Below, one piece after another: positions 4,879 to 31,299 of a stretch of 38,210 nucleotides of DNA. The stretch's first letter is position 1. Each line of letters opens with the position of its first letter. Source of the DNA: a virus; IMG/VR virus record IMGVR_UViG_3300030101_001759, positions 899 to 39,108 of that record. The stretch is one strand, 5' to 3'. The notes beneath the pieces were generated by a model, which had not been told where the DNA came from, did not search any database, and saw nothing but the letters and a program-made list of their open reading frames with translations. The translations under genes were made by a program, and so were the position numbers.

Positions 4879-5778
4879 CTAACGACCTAGTAATGCATCA
4901 CTAAAAGATTGCTCTTCAGTTCTAGGTTGTTCAGATTTACCTGTAATCACAGAAGGATCTTTAGGTACTGATAACCTTTGAGCTTGATTTTGCATCTCTT
5001 GTGTTTTTTGTTGCACTACTGGATTCGCATTTGTTCTTAATTCAAATAACTTAGCTAAATTATCCATAGAAAGATTATCTGGTGCAGAAGCCCATTTAAT
5101 AAATTCATTAGCTTTTGCGTTATCCCAACCATAATTATTAACAGCGTGACTATATGCTTGTTGTTGAATAGCCTGCTGTTGTTGTACAGCTACTTGTTGT
5201 TCATACTGAGATTGCATTTCTGCTTGTCTTTGTGCATCAACATTTTTTAGATAACCAAGATACTCATCTCTATAGTTTTCTTTAGCTACTCGATACTGAA
5301 ATGACTTTGATTCTGGGTCATTATAAGCATCGACTTCATTGTAATTAACTGGTTTTTCAGGTTCTGTAGGCTCCTTCAACGAAGTCTGCTGAACTCCCAT
5401 AGGGGTTTGTCCTGCAGGTTGTCCATTGGAGAGCTTGGCTTCTAAACTATTAAGAACCTCTGGATTATTTCTAATAATTTGCTCAACAGGAGCCATACTA
5501 TTTCTATAATAATCCAGTTCTTCTCTAAGTCCAGATAGCTCACTCTTGGCTTTATCAGCCTGTGACTGCCAGTACTCATACCTATTAGTGTCTTCTTTTG
5601 GGTCAACACTATTTTCTGTGGTTTCACTAATTGGAGCTGCAACTTCTTGACCACTAGCAGGGTCAACATCAGTTGTAGGTATATTACCAGAAGGTATCTC
5701 TTGAGACAACTCTCCTTGAAACATTTCTACATCTTGTGTAGGTGCAGAACCAGCATCAACTACTTCCAAATTATCCAT
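4879..5778 (-). CDS. Scaffolding protein
   Basis: 299 residues, strongly acidic at the N-terminus (MDNLEVVDAGSAPTQDVEMF) and very rich in Q, E and N. Residues about 70-100 (KSELSGLREELDYYRN) and about 165-220 (repeated Q-rich AEMQSQYEQQ-like stretches) look like coiled coils. It lies between portal and coat genes. Low-complexity, helical, acidic proteins in this place are internal scaffolds that leave the procapsid. The start has AAAGGAAA upstream. No protease motif is visible. Confidence 0.8.
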   Translation of the reverse strand: MDNLEVVDAGSAPTQDVEMFQGELSQEIPSGNIPTTDVDPASGQEVAAPISETTENSVDPKEDTNRYEYWQSQADKAKSELSGLREELDYYRNSMAPVEQIIRNNPEVLNSLEAKLSNGQPAGQTPMGVQQTSLKEPTEPEKPVNYNEVDAYNDPESKSFQYRVAKENYRDEYLGYLKNVDAQRQAEMQSQYEQQVAVQQQQAIQQQAYSHAVNNYGWDNAKANEFIKWASAPDNLSMDNLAKLFELRTNANPVVQQKTQEMQNQAQRLSVPKDPSVITGKSEQPRTEEQSFSDALLGR

Positions 5779-5826
5779 TTTTATTTTCCTTTATTTGCGA
5801 TTTGGTTAATTCCAGCAACCGCTTCC

Positions 5827-8058
5827 TCAATTCTCTTCATTTATACTTAGTATAGTTTCATTCATTTGACGCTGTGGATTATCTTCAGCAGCTATAGATA
5901 AATCATTTTTTGCATTCTTTAACTCATCACTAAGTCTAGATTGATATAATTTTTGTGCCATTTCTACTTTGGCTTCAGCTTTAGCAAGCTTCTTTTCAAA
6001 TTCTTTTACCTCTACACGTTTTCTATCATGTAGTGATTCCCTCTGTGCAGTCTGTAAGTCACCTTTAAGTTTCTTAATTTCTTCATTTTGCATTTGTAAC
6101 TGTGATTGTAATTGTTTCATCTGTCCAGATCTTTCTAGTACACCTTCCATATCTGCAACATCTGTTTGTTTTAATAACTCTATTTGGTCAATTAAACCAG
6201 CTTGATACAACTGCATGTAGTACTCAAATCTTCCCCAACGGTTACTTGGCAATGTAGAACCAGACAATACTATAACATCGTATTTACCAACAGTAATGTC
6301 ATTTTGTTTCCCTACAACATTTCCTATATCATCATACATAGGACTATTAACTACAACCTCCATAGGTTTATTATTAGGTTGCATTATTCTCATAACTTTT
6401 TGGTCTGTATAAACTTGCTGTATTAAACCTATAACTACTTTAGCTAATTGATTTATTCCTTCTTCTATATCATCTCTTTTAGATTTTATACGTCTTTGAC
6501 CATATTCGTCTAAAGCAACAGTACCTTTAAAAGTTTGTGGTGCAGCACCCATGTCGCCCTGCATTAAAGCGTATATACCAAGGATTCTTTCAATATCAGC
6601 TTTTGCATCTGCCTCATTTTTATATAATTCATTAGGCAAAGGTATAGGGGATGCTACTATAGGACTACCTAACTCTGGGTCAAACTCTATGACCGCTGTT
6701 CCTGCTCTACCCCAATCTTGTTCTACCTGCTGTTTGTTTACTGCACCACGAGGGATTAATAATTTTACATTTGTACTACTAGATGCATGTGCAATAATTA
6801 ATGAGCGTATTTTATTTATATACTCTTGCAATCCTTTTACAAGTCTTACATCAGACATAGGATAAGGATTACGATTAAAACCATTCATAAATGGCACAAT
6901 TGGATATTCTTCTATAGGTAGTATTGATTTATATAACATATAATCACCTACAGAAACACATTGCTCTATGTTTGTAACTTCTATTTCGTTTACTAAAATT
7001 CTATTATCTTCTATTAAATGGTCTTTAGTAGCAATGTCTATATAGCTTGTAGAGTTAGGTATTGACCCTTCATGTTCTTTACCTCCCATTGGCATAGGTT
7101 GACCTGACATAGGGTCTTGCATCATATGGAATGTATCACCCATTTGTTCATGCAATTGAACATAACCTCTTACTTGTTTTTCATCGGTAAATATTTGAAC
7201 ATCACCATTATTATCAGTTAAGATAACTACTTCTTCTTTTTTGTATTCATCATATTGTTCTATATTTAAAACTTTTTCTTCATTAGCATAAGGGTCATAA
7301 ATCTTATAATAAGGCATACGTATTTTTGTATACCTAGTAAACATTTCTAATTCTCTATCCCCACTTAATTCCTGCCCTGCTATTCTGCTTTTAACTGTAA
7401 CATCTTCAGAATATAAAGAAGCTCTACTTTCAGCAGGTATATTAATATGACTAGTTTCTTGAACTTGTAATATTTGTTCTTCAAATTCAGGAAAATATTG
7501 TATTAATTGATTTTCACTCATCAACTTAGCTATAATTATATGACCACAATCTCTAGCAAAAGGATCTTTACTGCTTGGGTCAAAGTATACTTCAAGAGGG
7601 TCTATTGATTTTAGACAAACTTCACCACGACCAAAGTCTTTATCTGGGTCTGTATATGCCATCATAACTCCCATGCCTTTAACATAATAGTCATCGATGC
7701 ATTGCTTAAGTTCTACGTTGCCATGTGAATTATCCCAGACGTAGGACATTAAGTCAGAAAATAAACGACCAACTTCTGTATCGCTGGTTTCTCTGGCAGT
7801 TGACTGAAATCGTGGTTTGTTAGCAGAGAGCATAGCTTTTGCTTGCTCTACTGCAGAAAAAACTACATTTACTACAATTGGTTCTTGAGCTTTATTACGC
7901 AATGCAGTAGCTTGTTCTTTTGTCCATTGCTTACCATTGCGAAACTCATTATCCTCTACAGCTTGCTTTGCCCAGTTTTCTCTAGCAGAACTATATTCTT
8001 TTAATAAATCGTGTGTAAATTGTACTTCTGAGTCTTTATTAGAGTTATTGTTATGCAT
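5827..8058 (-). CDS. Portal protein (P22-like)
   Basis: 743 residues, the usual size for P22-type portals. The N-terminal signature is clear: NEFRNGKQWT, then PIVVNVVFSAVEQAKAML with NKPRFQ, then CIDDYYVKGMGVMMAYTDP and SIDPLEVYFDP, followed by the helical wing and stem. The C-terminus (about 625-720) is a long charged coiled coil with Q/E/K repeats. It forms the 12-fold DNA channel at one capsid vertex and docks terminase during packaging. It follows terminase by 52 bases, and 48 bases separate it from the scaffold gene. Confidence 0.92.
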   Translation of the reverse strand: MHNNNSNKDSEVQFTHDLLKEYSSARENWAKQAVEDNEFRNGKQWTKEQATALRNKAQEPIVVNVVFSAVEQAKAMLSANKPRFQSTARETSDTEVGRLFSDLMSYVWDNSHGNVELKQCIDDYYVKGMGVMMAYTDPDKDFGRGEVCLKSIDPLEVYFDPSSKDPFARDCGHIIIAKLMSENQLIQYFPEFEEQILQVQETSHINIPAESRASLYSEDVTVKSRIAGQELSGDRELEMFTRYTKIRMPYYKIYDPYANEEKVLNIEQYDEYKKEEVVILTDNNGDVQIFTDEKQVRGYVQLHEQMGDTFHMMQDPMSGQPMPMGGKEHEGSIPNSTSYIDIATKDHLIEDNRILVNEIEVTNIEQCVSVGDYMLYKSILPIEEYPIVPFMNGFNRNPYPMSDVRLVKGLQEYINKIRSLIIAHASSSTNVKLLIPRGAVNKQQVEQDWGRAGTAVIEFDPELGSPIVASPIPLPNELYKNEADAKADIERILGIYALMQGDMGAAPQTFKGTVALDEYGQRRIKSKRDDIEEGINQLAKVVIGLIQQVYTDQKVMRIMQPNNKPMEVVVNSPMYDDIGNVVGKQNDITVGKYDVIVLSGSTLPSNRWGRFEYYMQLYQAGLIDQIELLKQTDVADMEGVLERSGQMKQLQSQLQMQNEEIKKLKGDLQTAQRESLHDRKRVEVKEFEKKLAKAEAKVEMAQKLYQSRLSDELKNAKNDLSIAAEDNPQRQMNETILSINEEN

Positions 8059-12222: not shown

Positions 12223-12564
12223 ATGACTGAATTACATAAAGTACTATCAGAGTACAAAAAGCAAATAGAGGATATAACTAAAGCACGAAATGAAAAGCGT
12301 GCTAATAATCCTGTATGGTTTAATCGTAGCAAACAGGTAGACGGAGTCTGGACTGATAACCCTATTGCCATAGATAAAATTAGTGAATCTATGGATGACG
12401 GTTATATAGTTAACATGTTTATCAAAGATGTAGAAGACAAAGATAGTGTTCTTACTACGACTTTGGCAGATTTGTTGAAAGACAAATTGATGTTGGCTTT
12501 GGGTACAGAGAGAGAGTGCAAAAATAACACATTGCGCTACATGGTGGTCAGTACTGAAGAGTAA
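12223..12564 (+). CDS. Hypothetical early protein
   Basis: 113 residues from ATG 12223 (MTELHKVLSEYKKQIEDITK); an in-frame ATG at 12184 is possible, but the AGGAGA at 12210-12215 sits 7 bases before 12223. N-terminal helix, then a segment with NNPVWFNRSK, then an acidic mixed region with LTTTLADLLKDKLMLALGT. No family recognised. The stop is 5 bases before the first helix strand of the large RNA, so both may share a transcript. Confidence 0.65.
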   Translation: MTELHKVLSEYKKQIEDITKARNEKRANNPVWFNRSKQVDGVWTDNPIAIDKISESMDDGYIVNMFIKDVEDKDSVLTTTLADLLKDKLMLALGTERECKNNTLRYMVVSTEE

Positions 12565-12569
12565 TCATC

Positions 12570-13501
12570 TGTCGTGTTAATAGTAAGTGTGGTGTCTGTA
12601 AAAGGATACCACATTTACTAAAAAAGATGTGCTTCGCCCAATATTATAATTCGCCAAAAAGCTCATAACGCTCACCACCATAACCTACAACTGCAATGTC
12701 ACTAGAACAAGCTAGTAACATTTACTGCTTTTTTTATTTGTGATGTATCTGGTTTGGTAATTAATAGTTAGTAATGTCGTAAGGAGATCCTCTGAAATGT
12801 ACAGACACGAGTGAACACTATACCCAGTAATACATTATGCTACTGCAAGCTCTCATGAATTAGTAGTTGTCATGCCTGTCTTAGTACTACAATCTGCATA
12901 AGTCAAGATGAGACAGCAGAGTCATTAGACACCCTAGTCATCAACTTGGGTTAGTGTAATTAACTAACCAGTCAAGTAGCAGCACAATGAGGTAAAGCCA
13001 TCAGTTTAATTAATAGGAGGTTTTACCTTGTTGTGTAATTTCGTTGAAAAAATCTTTACATATCTCCTGCGACTATGTGGATTCATTGAAATTATTCAAC
13101 ACATAGCGTATACAGTTAAGATTAAATGTAAAGTTAGAGAACAATGGTAGGTTATTGCTGTAATAAAGATATCGCCCTACATACTGTTACTCGAACAAGG
13201 TTTGCTCTGTACCTTGACATCAAAACAGAGCAAAGCGTTATAACAGACACTAGGATGGACAAGAGCAGGGAAGAGATTGCTAACTTTCGTAAACATGGAT
13301 ATTACGCTCACCATGAACATCCTAGAAGATATAAGAGCCTATGCACATTAACATTCGTTAACGTCATGACATTAGCCACGATGGAAAGACTATATTCCTT
13401 TTTGGTAAATTGTGTATAGTTTAGTACACGACACGAAGAATCTACCACGAGTTTGCAACGGTGTGGCAGTAGAAGAAGTGTTAGGGTTGTGTATAGGCTC
13501 T
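12570..13501 (+). ncRNA. Large ornate structured noncoding RNA (candidate)
   Basis: About 930 bases without a convincing gene, with GC about 40% in two lines counted by hand, above the flanking genes. Nested pairings: TGTCGTGT 12570-12577 with 13426-13433; a 16-bp hairpin 12581-12620; ATAACGCT 12665-12672 with 13234-13241; ATAACCTAC 12680-12688 with 13147-13155. Inside these: hairpins 12695-12722 and 12876-12883/12909-12916; 12945-12955/12963-12976; 15 bp 12982-12996/13022-13036; 13054-13061/13126-13133 enclosing 13068-13079/13100-13110; and 10 bp 13201-13210/13225-13234. In the 3' part: 13387-13394/13415-13422 and a 14-bp helix 13334-13347/13488-13501 that crosses the first helix, so a pseudoknot or alternative. 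G-U pairs occur in several helices as read on the plus strand; on the minus strand they would be A-C clashes. Size, shape and phage setting recall GOLLD/ROOL RNAs; identity is unproven. Confidence 0.7.
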
Positions 13502-13526: not shown

Positions 13527-13703
13527 ATGATAAAACTAAAATCAAAAGACAGAATAATATCTATGCTTGTAGATTTATTATCTGATAGTGATAACATTGG
13601 TGATATGTCAGTAGAAGGATGGATAAACGCATTAAAATGGGTATTATCTATGGACGATACTGAAGAACTAAGTGAGGCATACAATGCAGAGACTAGTAGT
13701 TAA
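13527..13703 (+). CDS. Hypothetical small early protein
   Basis: 58 residues, ATG at 13527 with AAAGGAG upstream (spacing 6), stop TAA at 13701. MIKLKSKDRIISMLVDLLSD begins basic, the remainder is acidic and helical (WINALKWVLSMDDTEEL). It is the first gene after the large RNA. No family recognised. Confidence 0.6.
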   Translation: MIKLKSKDRIISMLVDLLSDSDNIGDMSVEGWINALKWVLSMDDTEELSEAYNAETSS

Positions 13704-15205: not shown

Positions 15206-15314
15206 ACATAAAAACAAAGAGTATATACCTGCAGAAATTGACAATTATGTAATTGAAAATTTAATCTGTTTAGATTGTCACAGTAACTTATCACTAGAAA
15301 GGGAGGACATATGA
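15183..15314 (+). CDS. Mini zinc-ribbon-like protein
   Basis: 43 residues, ATG at 15183, stop overlapping the next start as ATGA (15311-15314). MEKQKDCEHKNKEYIPAEID then ENLICLDCHSNLSLE: C7/H9 plus C-x2-C is the spacing of a small zinc ribbon. Its end supplies the strong AGGGAGGA ribosome site of the following gene. Function unknown. Confidence 0.5.
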   Translation: MEKQKDCEHKNKEYIPAEIDNYVIENLICLDCHSNLSLEREDI

Positions 15315-16306
15315 GTCCAGCATTTATAGATAATATGATGTACGTTGGAGATACACCTTGGCACAAACAGGGTGTAAGAGTAGACGATGCTCCAACAATA
15401 GAAGAGGCATTGCATTATGCAAAGCTTAATTGGGAAGTAATAAAAGAACCTACTTATATATATCCTAACAATGGATATGGAGGTAAGAAAACAGGTCATT
15501 ATGTAACTTTACGAGAAGACACTCATCAGATACTGGGTAATGTATCTGGTAAATATGGTATCTTACAAAATCGTGAAGCATTTGAACCATTTGAACCACT
15601 ACTTGATATGGGTTTCAAACTAGAAACAGCAGGTAGTGTACAAGATGGTAAGAAAGTGTGGATACTTGCTAAGTCTCCAGAAAACTACAAAGTAGGTGAT
15701 GACCTTATAGAACAATATGTATTGCTATATACATCACACGATGGTTCAGCTGGTAGTGTATTTAGACCTACAGGTGTTCGTGTAGTATGCTACAATACTA
15801 TTGAATTAGCATTATCAAGACAAGCCAAATGGCAATATTCATTAAAACATACTGCTAGTATTAAAGACAGAGTTAAAAATCTTACAAAAATTATAGGAAG
15901 ATCTAACGGAGACTTTAAAGCTGCTATTGATGACATGAATAACTTTGGTGAAATAGAAATGAACGAAGATTCATTAGACCTATATCTTGAAACAGTTATA
16001 CCATTCTTAAAAGACAGAAACAAAGAATCTAACCCAGAAATGGGTATCTTTGTACGCAATACTGCGTTACCTGTATACAATAAGATTAAAGATAACTTTT
16101 ACAATGGTATGGGTAATAAAGGTGAAACACTTTGGGATGCATACAATGCAATCACTCAGTATTACACACATGACAAACAATATAAAGACTGGGTAAGAAC
16201 TACACAGTTTGGTGCTGGCTATGATTATAATGTAAAAGCATTTAAAATAGCACAGAAATTTGTAAATGTCACAAGAAAAAACAATCAATCATTCAGCTTA
16301 AATTAG
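15311..16306 (+). CDS. DUF932 / TIGR03299-type phage-plasmid protein
   Basis: 331 residues. Typical features of this widespread phage/plasmid family are present: an N-terminal G-DTPWHKQGVRV motif (about 13-24), a Y-x-L-R-E-D segment near ILGNVSGKY, and FRPTGVRVVCYNTIELAL around 150-170. Strong Shine-Dalgarno AGGGAGGA. The biochemical role is unknown; family members sit with recombination and replication genes, as here directly before the ERF annealase. Confidence 0.85.
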   Translation: MSPAFIDNMMYVGDTPWHKQGVRVDDAPTIEEALHYAKLNWEVIKEPTYIYPNNGYGGKKTGHYVTLREDTHQILGNVSGKYGILQNREAFEPFEPLLDMGFKLETAGSVQDGKKVWILAKSPENYKVGDDLIEQYVLLYTSHDGSAGSVFRPTGVRVVCYNTIELALSRQAKWQYSLKHTASIKDRVKNLTKIIGRSNGDFKAAIDDMNNFGEIEMNEDSLDLYLETVIPFLKDRNKESNPEMGIFVRNTALPVYNKIKDNFYNGMGNKGETLWDAYNAITQYYTHDKQYKDWVRTTQFGAGYDYNVKAFKIAQKFVNVTRKNNQSFSLN

Positions 16307-22653: not shown

Positions 22654-25600
22654 TTACTCACCTAAAGTTTCTTCTATCCTGCTTTTTTGTCTACTTCTAC
22701 GTTTTTCTCTTTCAAGCCTAGACTTCATCTGATTAACAGGTAATCTTAAAAATATTTCACCAGCTCTTTCTGGTCTTTCTGAAAACTGAACAAGCTGTCT
22801 TACACCTCTTCCAAACGGAAACATAGTATATGCAGTATAAGAACTAAATTTTTCCCAGTCACCAGTCAGCAGCTCTATTGCTGCATCAGGTATTCTAGCA
22901 ACAGGTGGCTTTAATAATTGTAATGCCCCTAACTTGCTACCCCAGAATGCCATATCTCTTTCACGCTTGTCTCCATATAAACTATCTGCTATAGATTGGA
23001 ATGTATCTAATGGTGGTGCTAATGCAGTATCAAAAATACTAAACATAAATGCACTACCCAATGCAAACATGAACAAGTCAATCATATATGTATCTTTAAA
23101 TCTTTCGTACTCTGGTGTACCTTCTTTAAATCCATATAACTTAGCTTGTCTATAAAATTCTTTTCTTGTTCTTACGGAGTTCCAAACAAATAATTTAAAC
23201 CTAGATAATACTTTACCAACAGCAGTTCTCATAAATGCTGGTCTTGCAGAGTTTTGATAAAGGAATTGAGTATTTTCTATACCTCTCATTGCCATATTAA
23301 AAACAAAAGGATCTTCTATAGATAACTCTCTTCCTTCAGCTCCAAACTTTTTTACTGCTTGCATTGCATGTGCAGTAAACGCATTTAATCTGTTTATGCG
23401 TTCAGAGTTCTGCATAAAGAACGAGCCATATTTAACCATAGTATCCATTACGTTGTATTTTCTTACAACTTCCATAACACTTAAATTTGGATTTTTACTT
23501 TTTGCTGCAGTTGTTATTTCTCGTTTAAATGTTGATAAATTAACACCAGCTTTTTTTAATCCTGACCTAAGTCTTGGATTAACATCAAACTCATTCTGTA
23601 TAAATGCATCAATAACACCTCGCTCTTCAAGGTATTGTAATAATTCTTTTCTATTCTTAGCAGTCTTACCATTATTAAGTTTTACAACTTCATTGCCTTT
23701 ACCATCAGTTAATAGCATGTCATATATTTTTTTATTGCTGTAAGTATCAGCAAAATTTTTAATACCTGCACTACCAATAGTCATAGCACTACCACTAAAT
23801 ATATTAGTTGCCCATGTACCTGTGTTTGCTAACAAACTCATCAATTGATACTGAGCTTCCATTCTACCTAATTCATGTAACTTACGACTAAAATATTCTT
23901 TTCTTGCTTCTTTACTCTTAGGAGCATGCTTAAAGAAAGGAGAGCTTACACCTTTATTTTGATAATATTTTTCAAATATATTAATTACATTTTCATCAGA
24001 AGTAAGATAAAATAAATTTCTTTTGTCTTTTAATTTTAATGGACTTTTAGGACTTACCATTTCTGTTGAAAAATATGATTGATGTCCTAATATACTTTGT
24101 AAATATAATTTTACATAGTCTGCCCAAACTTCTACAGGATTTTTATAATCAGAGCCTTTTAATTGTTCTTGTTCTGCTTTAGATACTTTATATCTTGTTC
24201 TAGGATTTCTAGTTAACCTATGAACCATATTATTAATTTCATACTGACCTTTTATAGCAGTAGCATTATTATAATAACTGCCAACAAGTTTATCTAAATA
24301 CAATTTAAATATAAAAGGACTCTTATCAAATCCTGGCATATCTACAACTCTATTTTTTAAATTACCAACAAGACTACCTTGACTAGTAAATTGTACATTT
24401 AAATCTGATTCCATTATCTTACTAGGTTCTATTAATTCACCGTAAGCAAAAAACTCTTCAGCACCTGCAAGTTTATTTTCTTGCTGTCTGTTATACTCTA
24501 AGAATGCTCTATCAGCTCTTTGAGCTGCCATCTCTGGAGTTAATCCTTTAGCTATAGCTTTTGAGTAAGTATCACCATATATATCATTAGCTTTATTTTC
24601 TATAAAAGTAACAATCTCTCTTGCAGATTTTTTAGTAGCACCAAAGTTCATGTGAGGCATGTAGCTAGTAACATCACGCTGTCCTATGCCTTTCATAAAT
24701 TGGTGCATCCTGTCTCTATATACAAAACTATCTTTCTGTCTAAAAGCTTCTTTCTCTAATCTTGTGCCAAGCATGGTCTTACTAAATTCTATTTCATTTA
24801 ATATAGCTTCTTCCATTTTTAATTCACGCTGATAACGTTTAATACCATCTATACCTACAGTTCTAATTACTTCTGGTTTATTTATATTATTGTTATCAAT
24901 TACAGTTCTTCTAAAATGTTGTAAATCCATTTTACCATCTGCATTCCATCTCATATATTTATTTAGTACTCCACCAGTAGACTTATACCATGACTGGAAA
25001 TCTTTATCCATTACCCAAGTACCATCTGCATCAGTTGCCTTAATACCTTTAGAATCTTTTGTATAAATTAAATCATGCATACCTTTAAAAAATTCTGTAA
25101 CAGGTTTATTGAGAGCTTCTATCTGTGCTAATTTTTTTGGGTTACTAGGAACAATTCCTTTTTCTCTAAAATCAAACAACTCTTCAACAAGCTTTGTTCT
25201 CTCTTCTGTACCATATTTATTTAATTCTTTTTCAATATTTTTATAATATTTATTCTCATAGTATACTATATCTTTACTAATACTTCTTTCGTTAGCTCCA
25301 TGATACCTAGCTATCTCTCCTACAGGACTTGTAAAAAAGAATATAGGTTTTCTTACATCACCACTAGCTGTTTTAACAGGAGCAAAGTATTGAAAGTATT
25401 TATTAATAAGACCTTTAGTAGCCATTTTTTCATCTGCAAAACGAGGATCTCTATACCAATAACTTAAATCAAACTTTAATCTATTAGGGTCTTGTATGCC
25501 TTTAAAATATCTATTAATAGCAACAATATCTTCCATTCTCATAGTACTAGCTTCTCTAGGTTCTATACCGCCAGATAATATACTTGTAAAATATTCAAAC

Positions 25601-28600
25601 CATTGTTCAAAATTTTCTTTAATTACTCTATGTCTATTAAGATTTTTTCTAAACTGTTGCACTTCTTTTAGTTGTGCTTCATTAATAGCCAAACCTTCCA
25701 TAGCTTTAGATGTAGTTAATTCAGTTAAAGTCTCTTTAGGTGATTTATCCATTAAAATCATTTCTGCTTTTGGTGGATTGAACAAATCAAATTGACTAGG
25801 GTCTACTTTTTTAGGCTTAGACTTAGGAGGTGTATTTTCATTTAACAACTCTTCAGTTGTTTTTATTGCTAATTCTTTTAATGTCGATATACTTTTAGCT
25901 TTAGCTTCAAGTTGTGGAGACTCTTGCTCAACACCTCTATTAAATACTTCTTCCATTTTACCATAAAATTCTTTTTTAGTTTCAAATGGAATACTTCTAG
26001 CACTATGTATATCTTTATATAGTTGGTTATGTCCAAAAAATCCTTGAGTCTTTTTAAATGTAATAGGACTTAATAATAATGTATGCCAATATTTCATTAA
26101 AGGTTCTGGTGTAAAATTATTATCTACTGCTAAATCTAAAAGCTCTTGTGATGTTTTTTGTATTTGTCTTTCTAAATTTTCTAATACACCATCCTTATCT
26201 AAACGTACTGTAGCTTGTAATTCTTCTTTTATTTTTTTATTACGTTCTATTAATCTAGGTATTAATTCTTTTATTGCATTTCCTTTAACACCTGCAGAAT
26301 CTATTGCTTTATGTAAATCTAAAAAGTTTTTATGCAGTAATTCTATTGTAGAAAAATGAGCTAACCCTCTACCTATATTATCAAATGCAAAACTATATTG
26401 AGATATTCTAGGGTCTAGTTTGCCTCTAGGATTCATATCAAAATTAAATTCTTTAGCTAATATTCCTAAATGCGTTTCTATAAACTTAGTTAATTCTTTA
26501 CCACCTATTAATCTTAAATTGTTTGCTGCCTGTTGCTGCACAGGTAAACTTTCCATTAATCTTGAATAAGCTCTAGTAATAATAGGAAAACTAAAAGACT
26601 CTATATTTAACCCTGCATTTTCCATACGTTTTACTAATGCAGGAATCATACCAGTCAATTCATGTTTTTTAACATTTACATTTGTTCTGGTTAACAATCT
26701 ACCTAAATCAAATATATCTAAAGCTTGACCTGTGCCAAATCTGCTTTTATTAAGTATAGCTTTACCATCACTATTTGGCTTTCTAGTTATAGAATATGTT
26801 ATATCATTTTCTGTAGTTAGTACTCTTTCACCTACATCAATGTCTAACTTAGCAATTTCTTTAGGTTCTAGTTTTAATATAACTTGTCCACTCTTAGTGG
26901 TTTCCCATGCTCTATCTTTTAATATACTCCACGAGATTTGTCTTACACTAGATTGTGGCTTTACTACTCTTAATGCATCTAGTATTGTAGAAAATGGTGT
27001 ATTAATAGCTTTACTTTTTAATTGATTATATCCAAAATAATCTTTTGGCAATTTAATATCTGAACCATTACGTTTTACTAAATCAAGCTCACCTGTTTTT
27101 TCATTTGCTTTATATACTTTCATATCAAATAAAGCATCAAACAATACTCTAGTGTGTGCAACAGAAGGCTTTATTGTAGGGTCTGTACTAGCATCTGCTG
27201 ATTTGTTTACAACTGCTGTACCAAGATCCCTAAAGAATTGCATTCTGTCAACTCCCATGACACTACCTTTTTTAACTTTTATGTTAGCAACAAAAGTTTG
27301 CCCACCATCTTCAAATGTAAAATCAACACTATTATTATTCTTAAGTATATAATCTGCAAAGTTTTGCATAGCTATCTTTGCATTTAAACTAGTACCCATA
27401 CCTTGCTTTGCAGAATAAGCCATCTGTGATGCTCTTAATCTGTAAGCAGGATTGTACATAAACATTTGATATTCTATATCTTCTACTTTATTGTAACCCT
27501 TATCACCTTCTTTTTTATTATAACCTTTGAATCTTTGCACTTCTGTAGCATCTAAGTCTGCATTAGAAAATATCCTATCTATTTCTTTAGCATAATCACT
27601 AGGTGTGCCATCTTTATTTTCCCATGCTGCTCTTTCATCTTTTACTTCAACAAACTTCTTTCTTAAATCATTACTGATTCCTTGATAGAGTTTGATACTG
27701 TCTGAGTCTTTATCTGCACCTCCAAGGTATTTATTATCCTTGTGGTGTGTGAACGAACCAGAACCTCTCTGCCCTGTAAAACCCCTAAAGCGTAACTGCC
27801 TTGTACCAGAGACACTATCAGCAGGAATGCGAATAGCGAGGAGCATAAATGTCTTATCCCATTCTTTAATGTTACTTCTGGATTTATTCCCAGTATATTG
27901 CTCCCAAGCTTCGCCCAAATTGACTCGCTTGTCGATAGTTTCCATAGTAGCTTTGCTATCAGTTTTTTGTGCATTTTTTAATTTCCTTTGGTATATAGCT
28001 TCTAATTCTTTTTCTGGTATGTATTTAGTTTCTATAGGCATTTTTTTAAACATGTTGTCTAAATACACATCGCCCTCTCTTAATTCTTTAATCCCTTTTT
28101 GTACATATTCTGGGTCTATTATTATACTTTCACCTTTGTATGTAAATAGCTGGTCAGGTGTAAATGCTTTCAACCAAGACTTACCACCTGTATAGATATA
28201 TGGATTAGCAAATCTTCTTACTAAAAATTTCTTTAAAGCATTATGATAATTTTCTTTAAATACAGTATTACGCACTGCGTATGTTCCAGCCATAGCTTGT
28301 GCTAATATTTTATTAGATGCATGAAATTGCCTAAAGTCAGAATTAGTATCAAATTCAAAATCTATATCTAACTTACCTTCTCCCTCTAATTTCATTATCT
28401 TGTCCATTACCTTACCTGCAACTCTGCTGTCAGGAAACTTAAGTAATGTATCTTTTATAAAGTCTAATGGTAATTCATTCAAAGAAAGGTCTGCATCTTC
28501 TATTATCTTATCTAATTCTTTTAATTGTTTATCAGATAACTTTTCATTCTTAGCTCTTACTTCATTTACTTTTTCTGCAAAAGATCTTCCTCTTTCTGTA

Positions 28601-31299
28601 CCTTGTAAACTAGGTTCTAATATTTCTTTAAAATATTGTTCAGCAAAATCTGGAAACTGATTACTAGATGCATGTAAATAAAATTGTCTTGCAATTTCAT
28701 CACCTTTAATAGATTTAAATGGGTCTTCAAATGTACCTGTACTAACTTGCATATGTTCAATAGGTACTTCAAATGTTTTAGGATTTTTAATAGAAAAAGT
28801 ATTGGATTTAGAATTGTAAGTAAACTCTGTGTTTATTTCTAAATTACCTCTTAACTTAGCTCCACTATCAAACACAATAAAATCTAAGCCATTTTCTTTC
28901 ATAAAGTTATTCCAACGACCTGTAGCTCTTTGTCCATTTGATTTAGTAAACAATGCACCTAATCCAGTATTGCCAGCTACAACTGGTTTAATATGACCTA
29001 CCATACTATCTTGACCCATATACTTAACTACATTGTCAAAAAATTTATGAGCAATAATTAATCCACCATCAGTATCACTATTACCTGTAGTTTCTATATC
29101 TTTAATTATCATTCCTCTTATTTTACCATTAGGAATAGTTTCTGTAAAACTAGCAGCATTTAATGGTGTCATTCTATTTGTTATAAGAGTTAATCTTTTA
29201 TTTAAATCTGCAACAGACTTACCATAACCTTTATTTAACAATAAACCTAAACCTTGTAAGCTAGGAGAGTTCTTATTAACTAACCCATTCATTGCAGCAT
29301 GATGCAGCACATTGCTAATCCATTTACGTTCATATAATCTATTTGTACCAAAAATACTTTTATCTGATGCAAGCCCAGCTTCAAAAGTTTTTTCTATAGC
29401 ACTTCTAATAACAGGGTCACCTTTAGACATAGCATCAAATATCATTTCTTTTGTTATTTGCACATTGCCTAAAGTGTCTACATAATTAGCAATTAACATA
29501 AAAGTTTTATCTTTTACACCACTATATATATACTTGCCTTGTTCTTCTAATTTATTTTCTATCTTGCGAAGTTTATTACTATCTACTTTAAATATTACGT
29601 TTTCACCTTGTGGTGCAAAATCTAATATTTTATAAGCTTGACCATTTTTAGTAACACCATGTGTCATAAACGAAAAACCACCAAAACCTAAGTAATTTAT
29701 AGGTAGTGTAACATACCTTTCACCTAAACTAGTTGTACCAAATGTTTTATCTTTTGTACTTTTTACTTCTATATCACCAAAAGCTTTATCTCTAAAATAA
29801 AATACTTCTTGTGTAGGTTCTGTTTCAGTATGCCACTTTCTTCTATACCTAGCTTCATGTTTAGTAGTTAAGTCATTACCTATTAATTTTTTAAGATTAG
29901 TTATAAATACTTCTACATTTCTACCACCTTCTGCTGATAAACTTTCAGCAGTAGCTTGTTCTCTAGCTGATATAAAATCTTGTTCTGTTCTAAATTGTTT
30001 TTTATCAACTTCTTTATATACTTCTTTATCTGTATTTTTTAAATACTCTATCTCTCTAGTAATAGGATCCATAAAATCACTTTGTTGGTCAGCATATAAT
30101 TGAGCAGAAGTACTTTCAGCATCTCTTAATCTACCTTGCAATACAGCCATTGCATCTGCGGCTCTTAGTCTGTAAAATGCTTGTATGTTAGCATCATTAA
30201 CTTCTCTACCAGAATTTTTAATATAAGTTTCTGCTAGTTGTCTCCATCTTGCTTCTGGAAAGTTTTTTTCTAAATAACCTAATGAAGCACCAGTAGCACC
30301 TTTTAACCTTTCAGAATTAGGAAAAGTAAGTGACTCACCCATAGGATGTTCATATAAAATAAAATCTTGTGTTCGTTTAGTTATAGTATTCCAATCTTTA
30401 GCATGCTCTGGGTCTAATATATCTTGCATATTTCTACCCAATCTCTCACCTTTTTTGCCTATCATCCATTCACCAGCAGCTTGTTTGTAAGCAGGTCTAG
30501 TATTATAACCAAAAAATCCACCTAACAAATACTCATAAATTTGCATTTCTATAGGGTCATTTCTCATAGTAGCAGGTAAACCCATAAACAAACTAGCTAC
30601 TCCAGCTCTTAATCTAGCATTAGCTTTTTGTATTTGTTCTGGACTACCTTTATACATTTTACCTACAGATACAAAATTACCTATACCACCAAATGCACCA
30701 CCTGCTATAGCTCCACCTACAAATGCATCAGCCATTATATCAGAACCTTTCCATACAGAACTAACAGCACTAGCTACACCAAGACCTAATGCTTCTTCAG
30801 TTATTTGTCTAGTAGCAGCACCTTTTCGTAAAAAATCTATAGTTTCAGCACCAGTTTTTTCTAAAACTTTATCAAAGGTAGCTTTTGTACCTCTAGAAAA
30901 TTTCATTGGAATAGCAATATCATCTAGTGTTTTAATACCAGCTTCTAATGCTTGATACATTCCTGTACCTCTAAATTTACTAAAAACAGATAATGGCGCT
31001 CTCATAATAGCAGGAGCAAAACCTGCAAGATGTCCAAGTTGTCTAAATATTGCTTCGCCTGTTGTACGAGGTTCTTTAGGTATTAGGTCAAATGTAGTTA
31101 GACCTTCTAAAAATCCTGCTTGTGCTTGTTGAAAACCTCTTCTTAAACTAAAATTACCTTCTAGTCTTTTAAAGTTTATTTCATTTTGTTCTGCTAATGC
31201 TTCCAACTCATCTAGTTGGTCGTCATTAAACATATCAGGATTAGCTCTGTATGTATTTATAAGGCTCTTTACTTTATAGCCTTCGTATGGATTAGCCAA
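22654..31299 (-). CDS. Giant 2881-residue protein: putative virion two-barrel RNA polymerase with ejection domains
   Basis: The longest gene of the window. Residues 12-45 match the next gene upstream. 170-212 is a Gly/Ala-rich hydrophobic stretch and 2738-2757 is a likely transmembrane segment; the C-terminus is basic. In the middle, R1157-I-P1159 is followed 39 residues later by D1196-K-D1198-S-D1200 in LGGADKDSDSIKLYQ, the order and near-spacing of the R-x-P and D-F-D-G-D motifs of the RNA polymerase beta-prime barrel. Upstream, DGGLIIAHKFFDNV at D744 and GHIKPVV with K771 recall the first barrel of single-chain polymerases such as crAss gp66 and QDE-1. F to K and G to S in the motif are unusual. 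A large 'polyvalent' injected protein without polymerase activity is the main alternative. Codon use around 27680-27970 differs from the rest. Confidence 0.6.
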   Translation of the reverse strand: MANPYEGYKVKSLINTYRANPDMFNDDQLDELEALAEQNEINFKRLEGNFSLRRGFQQAQAGFLEGLTTFDLIPKEPRTTGEAIFRQLGHLAGFAPAIMRAPLSVFSKFRGTGMYQALEAGIKTLDDIAIPMKFSRGTKATFDKVLEKTGAETIDFLRKGAATRQITEEALGLGVASAVSSVWKGSDIMADAFVGGAIAGGAFGGIGNFVSVGKMYKGSPEQIQKANARLRAGVASLFMGLPATMRNDPIEMQIYEYLLGGFFGYNTRPAYKQAAGEWMIGKKGERLGRNMQDILDPEHAKDWNTITKRTQDFILYEHPMGESLTFPNSERLKGATGASLGYLEKNFPEARWRQLAETYIKNSGREVNDANIQAFYRLRAADAMAVLQGRLRDAESTSAQLYADQQSDFMDPITREIEYLKNTDKEVYKEVDKKQFRTEQDFISAREQATAESLSAEGGRNVEVFITNLKKLIGNDLTTKHEARYRRKWHTETEPTQEVFYFRDKAFGDIEVKSTKDKTFGTTSLGERYVTLPINYLGFGGFSFMTHGVTKNGQAYKILDFAPQGENVIFKVDSNKLRKIENKLEEQGKYIYSGVKDKTFMLIANYVDTLGNVQITKEMIFDAMSKGDPVIRSAIEKTFEAGLASDKSIFGTNRLYERKWISNVLHHAAMNGLVNKNSPSLQGLGLLLNKGYGKSVADLNKRLTLITNRMTPLNAASFTETIPNGKIRGMIIKDIETTGNSDTDGGLIIAHKFFDNVVKYMGQDSMVGHIKPVVAGNTGLGALFTKSNGQRATGRWNNFMKENGLDFIVFDSGAKLRGNLEINTEFTYNSKSNTFSIKNPKTFEVPIEHMQVSTGTFEDPFKSIKGDEIARQFYLHASSNQFPDFAEQYFKEILEPSLQGTERGRSFAEKVNEVRAKNEKLSDKQLKELDKIIEDADLSLNELPLDFIKDTLLKFPDSRVAGKVMDKIMKLEGEGKLDIDFEFDTNSDFRQFHASNKILAQAMAGTYAVRNTVFKENYHNALKKFLVRRFANPYIYTGGKSWLKAFTPDQLFTYKGESIIIDPEYVQKGIKELREGDVYLDNMFKKMPIETKYIPEKELEAIYQRKLKNAQKTDSKATMETIDKRVNLGEAWEQYTGNKSRSNIKEWDKTFMLLAIRIPADSVSGTRQLRFRGFTGQRGSGSFTHHKDNKYLGGADKDSDSIKLYQGISNDLRKKFVEVKDERAAWENKDGTPSDYAKEIDRIFSNADLDATEVQRFKGYNKKEGDKGYNKVEDIEYQMFMYNPAYRLRASQMAYSAKQGMGTSLNAKIAMQNFADYILKNNNSVDFTFEDGGQTFVANIKVKKGSVMGVDRMQFFRDLGTAVVNKSADASTDPTIKPSVAHTRVLFDALFDMKVYKANEKTGELDLVKRNGSDIKLPKDYFGYNQLKSKAINTPFSTILDALRVVKPQSSVRQISWSILKDRAWETTKSGQVILKLEPKEIAKLDIDVGERVLTTENDITYSITRKPNSDGKAILNKSRFGTGQALDIFDLGRLLTRTNVNVKKHELTGMIPALVKRMENAGLNIESFSFPIITRAYSRLMESLPVQQQAANNLRLIGGKELTKFIETHLGILAKEFNFDMNPRGKLDPRISQYSFAFDNIGRGLAHFSTIELLHKNFLDLHKAIDSAGVKGNAIKELIPRLIERNKKIKEELQATVRLDKDGVLENLERQIQKTSQELLDLAVDNNFTPEPLMKYWHTLLLSPITFKKTQGFFGHNQLYKDIHSARSIPFETKKEFYGKMEEVFNRGVEQESPQLEAKAKSISTLKELAIKTTEELLNENTPPKSKPKKVDPSQFDLFNPPKAEMILMDKSPKETLTELTTSKAMEGLAINEAQLKEVQQFRKNLNRHRVIKENFEQWFEYFTSILSGGIEPREASTMRMEDIVAINRYFKGIQDPNRLKFDLSYWYRDPRFADEKMATKGLINKYFQYFAPVKTASGDVRKPIFFFTSPVGEIARYHGANERSISKDIVYYENKYYKNIEKELNKYGTEERTKLVEELFDFREKGIVPSNPKKLAQIEALNKPVTEFFKGMHDLIYTKDSKGIKATDADGTWVMDKDFQSWYKSTGGVLNKYMRWNADGKMDLQHFRRTVIDNNNINKPEVIRTVGIDGIKRYQRELKMEEAILNEIEFSKTMLGTRLEKEAFRQKDSFVYRDRMHQFMKGIGQRDVTSYMPHMNFGATKKSAREIVTFIENKANDIYGDTYSKAIAKGLTPEMAAQRADRAFLEYNRQQENKLAGAEEFFAYGELIEPSKIMESDLNVQFTSQGSLVGNLKNRVVDMPGFDKSPFIFKLYLDKLVGSYYNNATAIKGQYEINNMVHRLTRNPRTRYKVSKAEQEQLKGSDYKNPVEVWADYVKLYLQSILGHQSYFSTEMVSPKSPLKLKDKRNLFYLTSDENVINIFEKYYQNKGVSSPFFKHAPKSKEARKEYFSRKLHELGRMEAQYQLMSLLANTGTWATNIFSGSAMTIGSAGIKNFADTYSNKKIYDMLLTDGKGNEVVKLNNGKTAKNRKELLQYLEERGVIDAFIQNEFDVNPRLRSGLKKAGVNLSTFKREITTAAKSKNPNLSVMEVVRKYNVMDTMVKYGSFFMQNSERINRLNAFTAHAMQAVKKFGAEGRELSIEDPFVFNMAMRGIENTQFLYQNSARPAFMRTAVGKVLSRFKLFVWNSVRTRKEFYRQAKLYGFKEGTPEYERFKDTYMIDLFMFALGSAFMFSIFDTALAPPLDTFQSIADSLYGDKRERDMAFWGSKLGALQLLKPPVARIPDAAIELLTGDWEKFSSYTAYTMFPFGRGVRQLVQFSERPERAGEIFLRLPVNQMKSRLEREKRRSRQKSRIEETLGE

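Follow-up and report, generated by a model that had tools for sequence, protein, structure and literature searches.

Large structured RNAs are known from phages, GOLLD and ROOL among them, and large, complex RNAs such as OLE and HEARO are known from bacteria. To our knowledge no large phage RNA is assembled from a set of exchangeable RNA domains, and we therefore rate the RNA described here as a kind of its own and not as a further member of a known one; the open-access literature returned no report of such an RNA or of modular shuffling within one. ROOL, a large structured RNA of phages and prophages, forms a homo-oligomeric cage, whereas the present RNA has no single conserved fold, and oligomers are here hinted at by the self-complementary loops of one module (Y). 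GOLLD has a conserved 3' region and a less conserved 5' region (PMC12286853). A similar pattern is seen within the phage group to which our sequence belongs, but here the order of modules is free, and the 3' domain (module D) was found only in this group and in one further contig (L012), going undetected in other phages that carry modules K, M or H. GOLLD is also often encoded near tRNA genes, whereas a tRNA search gave none in our sequence and a single tRNA in one of 12 further loci.

Membership in GOLLD or ROOL, which a sequence-only reading of this DNA had raised, was not borne out by covariance models run on 12 records: GOLLD (RF02032) had no match at E up to 10, with control genomes giving only sub-cut-off matches and no certain positive, and ROOL (RF03087) had none, with the control genomes silent too. 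OLE and HEARO differ in that neither had an Rfam match at E up to 10 and no associated ORF family was seen at this locus. None of the Rfam 15 families, which include these two as well as group I/II introns and riboswitches, reached its gathering score in the window, and the loose matches in the window region and at related loci were weak, unrelated and set aside.

The window is a 38,210-nt stretch of a 39.1-kb IMG/VR record (IMGVR_UViG_3300030101_001759) from an uncultured bacterial virus. The RNA interval, 12570-13501, lies between two small genes and holds a folded RNA of roughly 0.7-0.9 kb, whose parts are listed in Table 1. Its neighbourhood is an early/recombination region with Erf, a primase-helicase and a DUF932-type protein, the last of these assigned through annotated relatives. 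Matches of the portal protein are P22-like, in keeping with the podovirus that had been proposed as the source. By far the longest open reading frame of the window encodes 2881 aa on the minus strand (22654-31299). The ribosome-binding site of the 58-aa gene begins ~12 nt past module D, and relatives of its protein (36-56% identity) occur in L005, L007, L039, L051, L059, L068-L070, L077, L079 and L081, where their genes are frequently, not invariably, close to the RNA array; the protein is a possible partner of the RNA.

Table 1. Features of the RNA locus and its flanks (window coordinates).
Feature	Position	Strand	Description	Remarks
Upstream flanking gene	12223-12564	+	113 aa, product unassigned	outside RNA
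5' hairpin	12581-12621	+	~17 bp, ahead of the module chain	by reading, not counted
Conserved box	12650-12664	+	TTCGCCAAAAAGCTC, in 5' region	relatives in window's phage group
Hairpin then T run	12691-12738	+	terminator-like by eye	not listed by strict terminator scan
Module A	12838-12981	+	domain closed by GCUAC/GUAGC (relatives: CUGUC/GACAG)	covariation
Module X	12982-13038	+	long hairpin	missing in L003, L005, L007
Module K	13054-13133	+	covarying outer and inner stems, almost invariant core AUCUCCUGCGA / CGUAUACAGUUAAGAUUAAAU	19 contigs
Module Y	13137-13192	+	stem GAGAAC/GUUACUC and GUAGG/CCUAC	mostly immediately before H
Hexamer of Y	13168-13173	+	self-complementary GATATC	variants in relatives
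Module H	13196-13231	+	H-type pseudoknot CAAGG..GCUCUGU..CCUUG..ACAGAGC	36 contigs
M leader	13237-13244	+	self-complementary GUUAUAAC (other phages: CUUAUAAG)	
Module M	13250-13325	+	three-way junction closed by CUAGGAUG/CAUCCUAG	18 contigs
Module D (3' domain)	13334-13501	+	14-bp terminal helix, invariant block CAUUAACAUUCGUUAACGUCAUGACA, three more helices	covariation
Downstream flanking gene	13527-13703	+	58 aa, product unassigned	outside RNA

Homologues were sought in IMG/VR with the DUF932-type protein (15311-16306) and the upstream protein, which yielded a close group and distant relatives. Members of the close group have 79-98% identity in the DUF932-type protein, and their RNA regions align at ~62-99%, interrupted where whole blocks have been inserted or lost. 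Core-pattern scans of IMG/VR then gave the contig numbers for K, H and M entered in Table 1, and K, M or H is present in about 60 contigs, the window not counted; three extra matches to a relaxed D pattern (L035-L037) were judged to be chance. The carriers are phages related to the window's at widely differing distances, with terminase identity to it running from 95% down to about 29% (distant carriers ~29-33%). Module cores, which are unpaired or pseudoknotted, are near-invariant throughout, and the stems vary freely and covary: at 29% terminase identity, L054 has a K core identical letter for letter and unaltered H pseudoknot helices. Free stems around fixed cores would fit a binding site, or a core with a catalytic or tertiary role.

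Compensatory changes were counted in helices named by hand, against shuffled and slid controls, a procedure simpler than R-scape and applied to small alignments of partial IMG/VR contigs (four sets of 7-15 sequences each), those of K, D and the Y loop hand-trimmed to the tested stems. Module K (15 sequences, 24 pairs) had 91.9% of its cells paired and 13 pairs changed on both sides, for a covariation score of 0.398; shuffles gave 0.157 +- 0.017 (0/500) and slid controls no more than 0.083. Scores also exceeded their shuffled values in M (0.225 vs 0.094; 15 sequences), in A (0.284 vs 0.168, 0/500; 11 sequences, 94.1% paired) and in D (0.196 vs 0.104; 7 sequences, 34 pairs), where 100% of counted cells were paired and seven pairs carried double changes. 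The terminal 14-bp helix of D (13334-13347/13488-13501), pointed out in the sequence-only reading, is thus real and covaries in relatives, its outer part being AGAGCC/GGCUCU, AGAGGU/ACCUCU or AUAAAC/GUUUAU. Across nine sequences the pseudoknot of H has one changed pair per helix, CAAGG/CCUUG becoming CAUGG/CCAUG and GCUCUGU/ACAGAGC becoming GCCCUGU/ACAGGGC. Modules X, N, T, V, P, Q, R, S and U were recognised from their similarity and folding, outside the covariation count. The strong local hairpins noted earlier are likewise present, the long 5' hairpin and several others; the stem of the former changes in step, by reading, from UAGUAA/UUACUA to UAGCAA/UUGCUA in L002.

The general claim of a large structured non-coding phage RNA on the plus strand is therefore upheld by compensatory changes in M, K, D, A and pseudoknot H, and by the helices, in which G-U cells outnumber A-C cells. 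This excess was 49 to 17 over four alignments and 19 to 0 in D, although module M alone had none (5 G-U, 6 A-C). We take plus as the RNA strand because of this excess and because the modules follow gene orientation, as had been read from the G-U pairs of the window itself. Folding energy, by contrast, does not discriminate. The interval has an MFE low for its composition (z-score -4.5, and -4.8 in a second run), but its reverse strand scored -4.0 and a coding control (15311-16270) -6.8; since the coding control lies below the RNA, we dropped the z-score as proof of structure.

A protein-coding gene in the interval can be given practically no credence. An open reading frame of 91 aa (13144-13419) does overlap Y, H, M and part of D, but its frame is not kept in homologues (L005, L006 and L018 have no ORF of at least 45 aa there), it has no PHROG or Pfam match, and base pairing dictates the substitutions. 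The earlier statement that the interval holds no credible gene agrees with the relatives, in which none of its reading frames is kept.

What did not survive comparison is the nested architecture first drawn for this RNA, in which long-range helices enclose one another. The outermost, 12570-12577/13426-13433, is confined to near-identical relatives, and its 3' arm is taken up by P4 of the 3' domain, a local helix that covaries. The second, 12665-12672/13234-13241, is missing in L002, L005 and L008, and the third, 12680-12688/13147-13155, is rivalled by a local helix within module Y, which 25 distinct Y-H sequences share. We consequently rejected the nested fold; judged from the relatives, the real architecture is serial. 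The suggestion of a new class is supported, but the type is different: exchangeable modules form a mosaic, in place of one nested ornate fold.

In the window the module chain, A-X-K-Y-H-M-D, occupies 12838-13501; between phages, whole modules are lost, gained, exchanged for others or put in another order. Module A is present in every full-length member of the group, and what follows it varies: A-X-K-M-D (L002), A-Y-H-M-D (L003, where X and K are missing), A-X-K-D (L004), A-K-Y-H-M-D (L005), A-K-Y-H-N-D (L007) and A-H-N-M-D (L011). Other phages carry modules absent from the window (N, T, V, P, Q, R, S, U), in orders such as P-K-Q-R (L048), H-P-K (L051), H-Q-P-K-S (L059), K-M-U (L060), K-V-U (L049), K-T-M (L056 and L044), T-M (L042), Y-H-V-U (L080) and Y-H-P-M-U (L061), and L038 and L039 have M as their sole module. 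Order is partly free, with H ahead of or behind K and Q ahead of or behind P, and L044 and L042 share their flanks and differ by K, present in the former. Most modules are closed by a helix of their own and joined by short, often A/U-rich linkers; all modules of one array share one orientation, that of the neighbouring genes, and K and M each occur at most once per record in whole-record searches with covariance models. We regard it as virtually certain that this is a structured RNA of exchangeable modules.

A single giant ornate RNA that, like GOLLD or ROOL, adopts one global and perhaps cage-forming fold might be suspected from the size, the phage origin, the self-complementary loops, and the conserved 3' domain and variable 5' part within the window's group. 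We consider it improbable: the free order of modules rules out one conserved global fold, and the silent GOLLD and ROOL models, the failure to detect D in other phages and the lack of a nearby tRNA all speak against it.

Several further observations concern individual parts and loci. A hairpin with a U-rich tract of the type CUUCCUUUAUUUAU recurs near the arrays of L038, L039, L042, L044 and L012 and at 12720-12740 of the window, and probably represents how terminators are built in this phage lineage. The motif AACGUCAUG (13356-13370 in the window) occurs both in the invariant block of D and in the R modules of L048, L054 and L068, which are different in other respects, and is perhaps a contact site common to them. 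In L012 (5066-7215) a 470-aa ORF (5668-7080) is flanked by ~600 nt of structured non-coding sequence on one side and a short D on the other, at a place where other relatives carry RNA modules only; the intron-like element that it brought to mind was discarded, as the ORF has no Pfam match and no intron model matched in the scanned loci. The M-bearing non-coding stretch of L045 (2860-2985) has an end that looks tRNA-like by eye (GTGGGTTTGATTCCCGC CCCCCTAACCA), which ARAGORN calls neither tRNA nor tmRNA. Two related phages in which modules A, K, H, M and D are all missing still show several hundred non-coding bases at the equivalent position (L014:7198-8900, L016:6791-7260), possibly composed of other modules.

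The hexamer in the loop of module Y keeps a fixed place and appears as GATATC, CTCGAG, CACGTG, AATATT, GCATGC or, with G-U pairs, GTGTACGC. Scored as pairs 1-6, 2-5 and 3-4, it is self-complementary in all 12 distinct aligned loops, with a score of 1.202 against 0.287 +- 0.104 in shuffles (0/500); a thirteenth form, GATTC, found in three contigs and left out of the scored alignment, is not self-complementary and counts against dimerisation. Palindromes in the window RNA overall are at chance level, without general excess, so that only sites that vary and yet stay self-complementary can serve as evidence. Such sites, in two forms each, are the V loop (AACTCGAGTT/ACAGCTGT), the loop before T (GCTCGAGC/GTTCGAAC) and the M leader (GTTATAAC/CTTATAAG); D has an invariant self-complementary GTCATGAC. 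Since the pairs of the Y hexamer cannot form within one loop, their simplest cause would be pairing between two copies of the RNA. The HIV-1 dimer initiation site is likewise a six-base loop whose sequence varies and whose self-complementarity is kept, a likeness of mechanism only, between unrelated RNAs, with dimerisation of the present one a prediction. We consider it slightly more likely than not, from the loop sequences, that the RNA forms a homodimer or oligomer.

The alternative cause of the hexamer is a dimeric protein bound to a DNA palindrome, and the modules as a whole might be elements of recombination or replication, or mobile hairpins, working as single-stranded or cruciform DNA and spread by exchange. 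The clean gain or loss of a unit between L044 and L042, the adjacent recombination genes and the palindromic hexamers would all suit such elements. Uniform orientation with the genes, the excess of G-U over A-C cells, the pseudoknot of H and the long asymmetric single-strand cores would not, and we consider this explanation quite improbable.

As to what the RNA does, our overall explanation, held at a little under even confidence, is a large non-coding phage RNA of a new class, built like beads on a string from exchangeable modules, probably oligomeric and serving as a multivalent binding platform. It would be transcribed with the early/recombination genes and act as RNA, a protein or ligand being bound at each module core. 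Copies would be joined into dimers or larger assemblies through the self-complementary loops of Y, V, T5, the M leader and D. The resulting platform could either soak up host factors, perhaps proteins of defence or RNA processing, or hold phage proteins as a scaffold, with recombination tuning its module set. Distinct domains with strict cores and possible dimerisation read best as a multivalent platform, and the flanking genes vary between phages, which makes control of one gene unlikely to be the whole story; a multivalent platform acting in trans thus seems to us a plausible but tentative assignment.

The main rival is a leader acting in cis, in which the modules would be attenuators, put-like antiterminators, ligand sensors or stability elements for downstream early genes. 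The put antiterminator RNA of phage HK022 consists of two short hairpins acting in cis. Our modules may be likened to it as early-region phage hairpins with conserved unpaired parts, but not in extent. The arrays do lie between co-directional genes and mostly end shortly before the next ribosome-binding site, as a leader would; in L038 and L039 M stands alone ahead of a recombination gene, Erf or another, and U-rich tracts follow nearby hairpins. However, the downstream genes differ widely among carriers, L012 has an oppositely oriented gene after D, no known leader uses as many different modules as the three to seven seen here, and the Y hexamer suggests pairing in trans. We therefore hold a leader to be unlikely, though to be taken seriously.

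Returning to the multivalent platform, it is tempting to speculate, as a rather improbable extension, that phages share a repertoire of recombining RNA modules, strung in different sets into an oligomer-forming RNA whose modules would each neutralise or recruit a host factor of their own. Such an RNA would amount to an 'RNA island' for counter-defence or take-over, by analogy with protein anti-defence islands. The modules have probably been overlooked because they occur mainly in uncultured viruses, with no relevant match among the GTDB contigs scanned for M and K or, by blastn with five RNA regions, in the cultured-phage collection searched. K, M and H are defined cores of about 36-100 nt that can be used directly to fish for partners, and the natural Y-loop variants are a ready test series for RNA oligomerisation. 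If the proposal is right, phages would trade RNA domains as they do protein genes.
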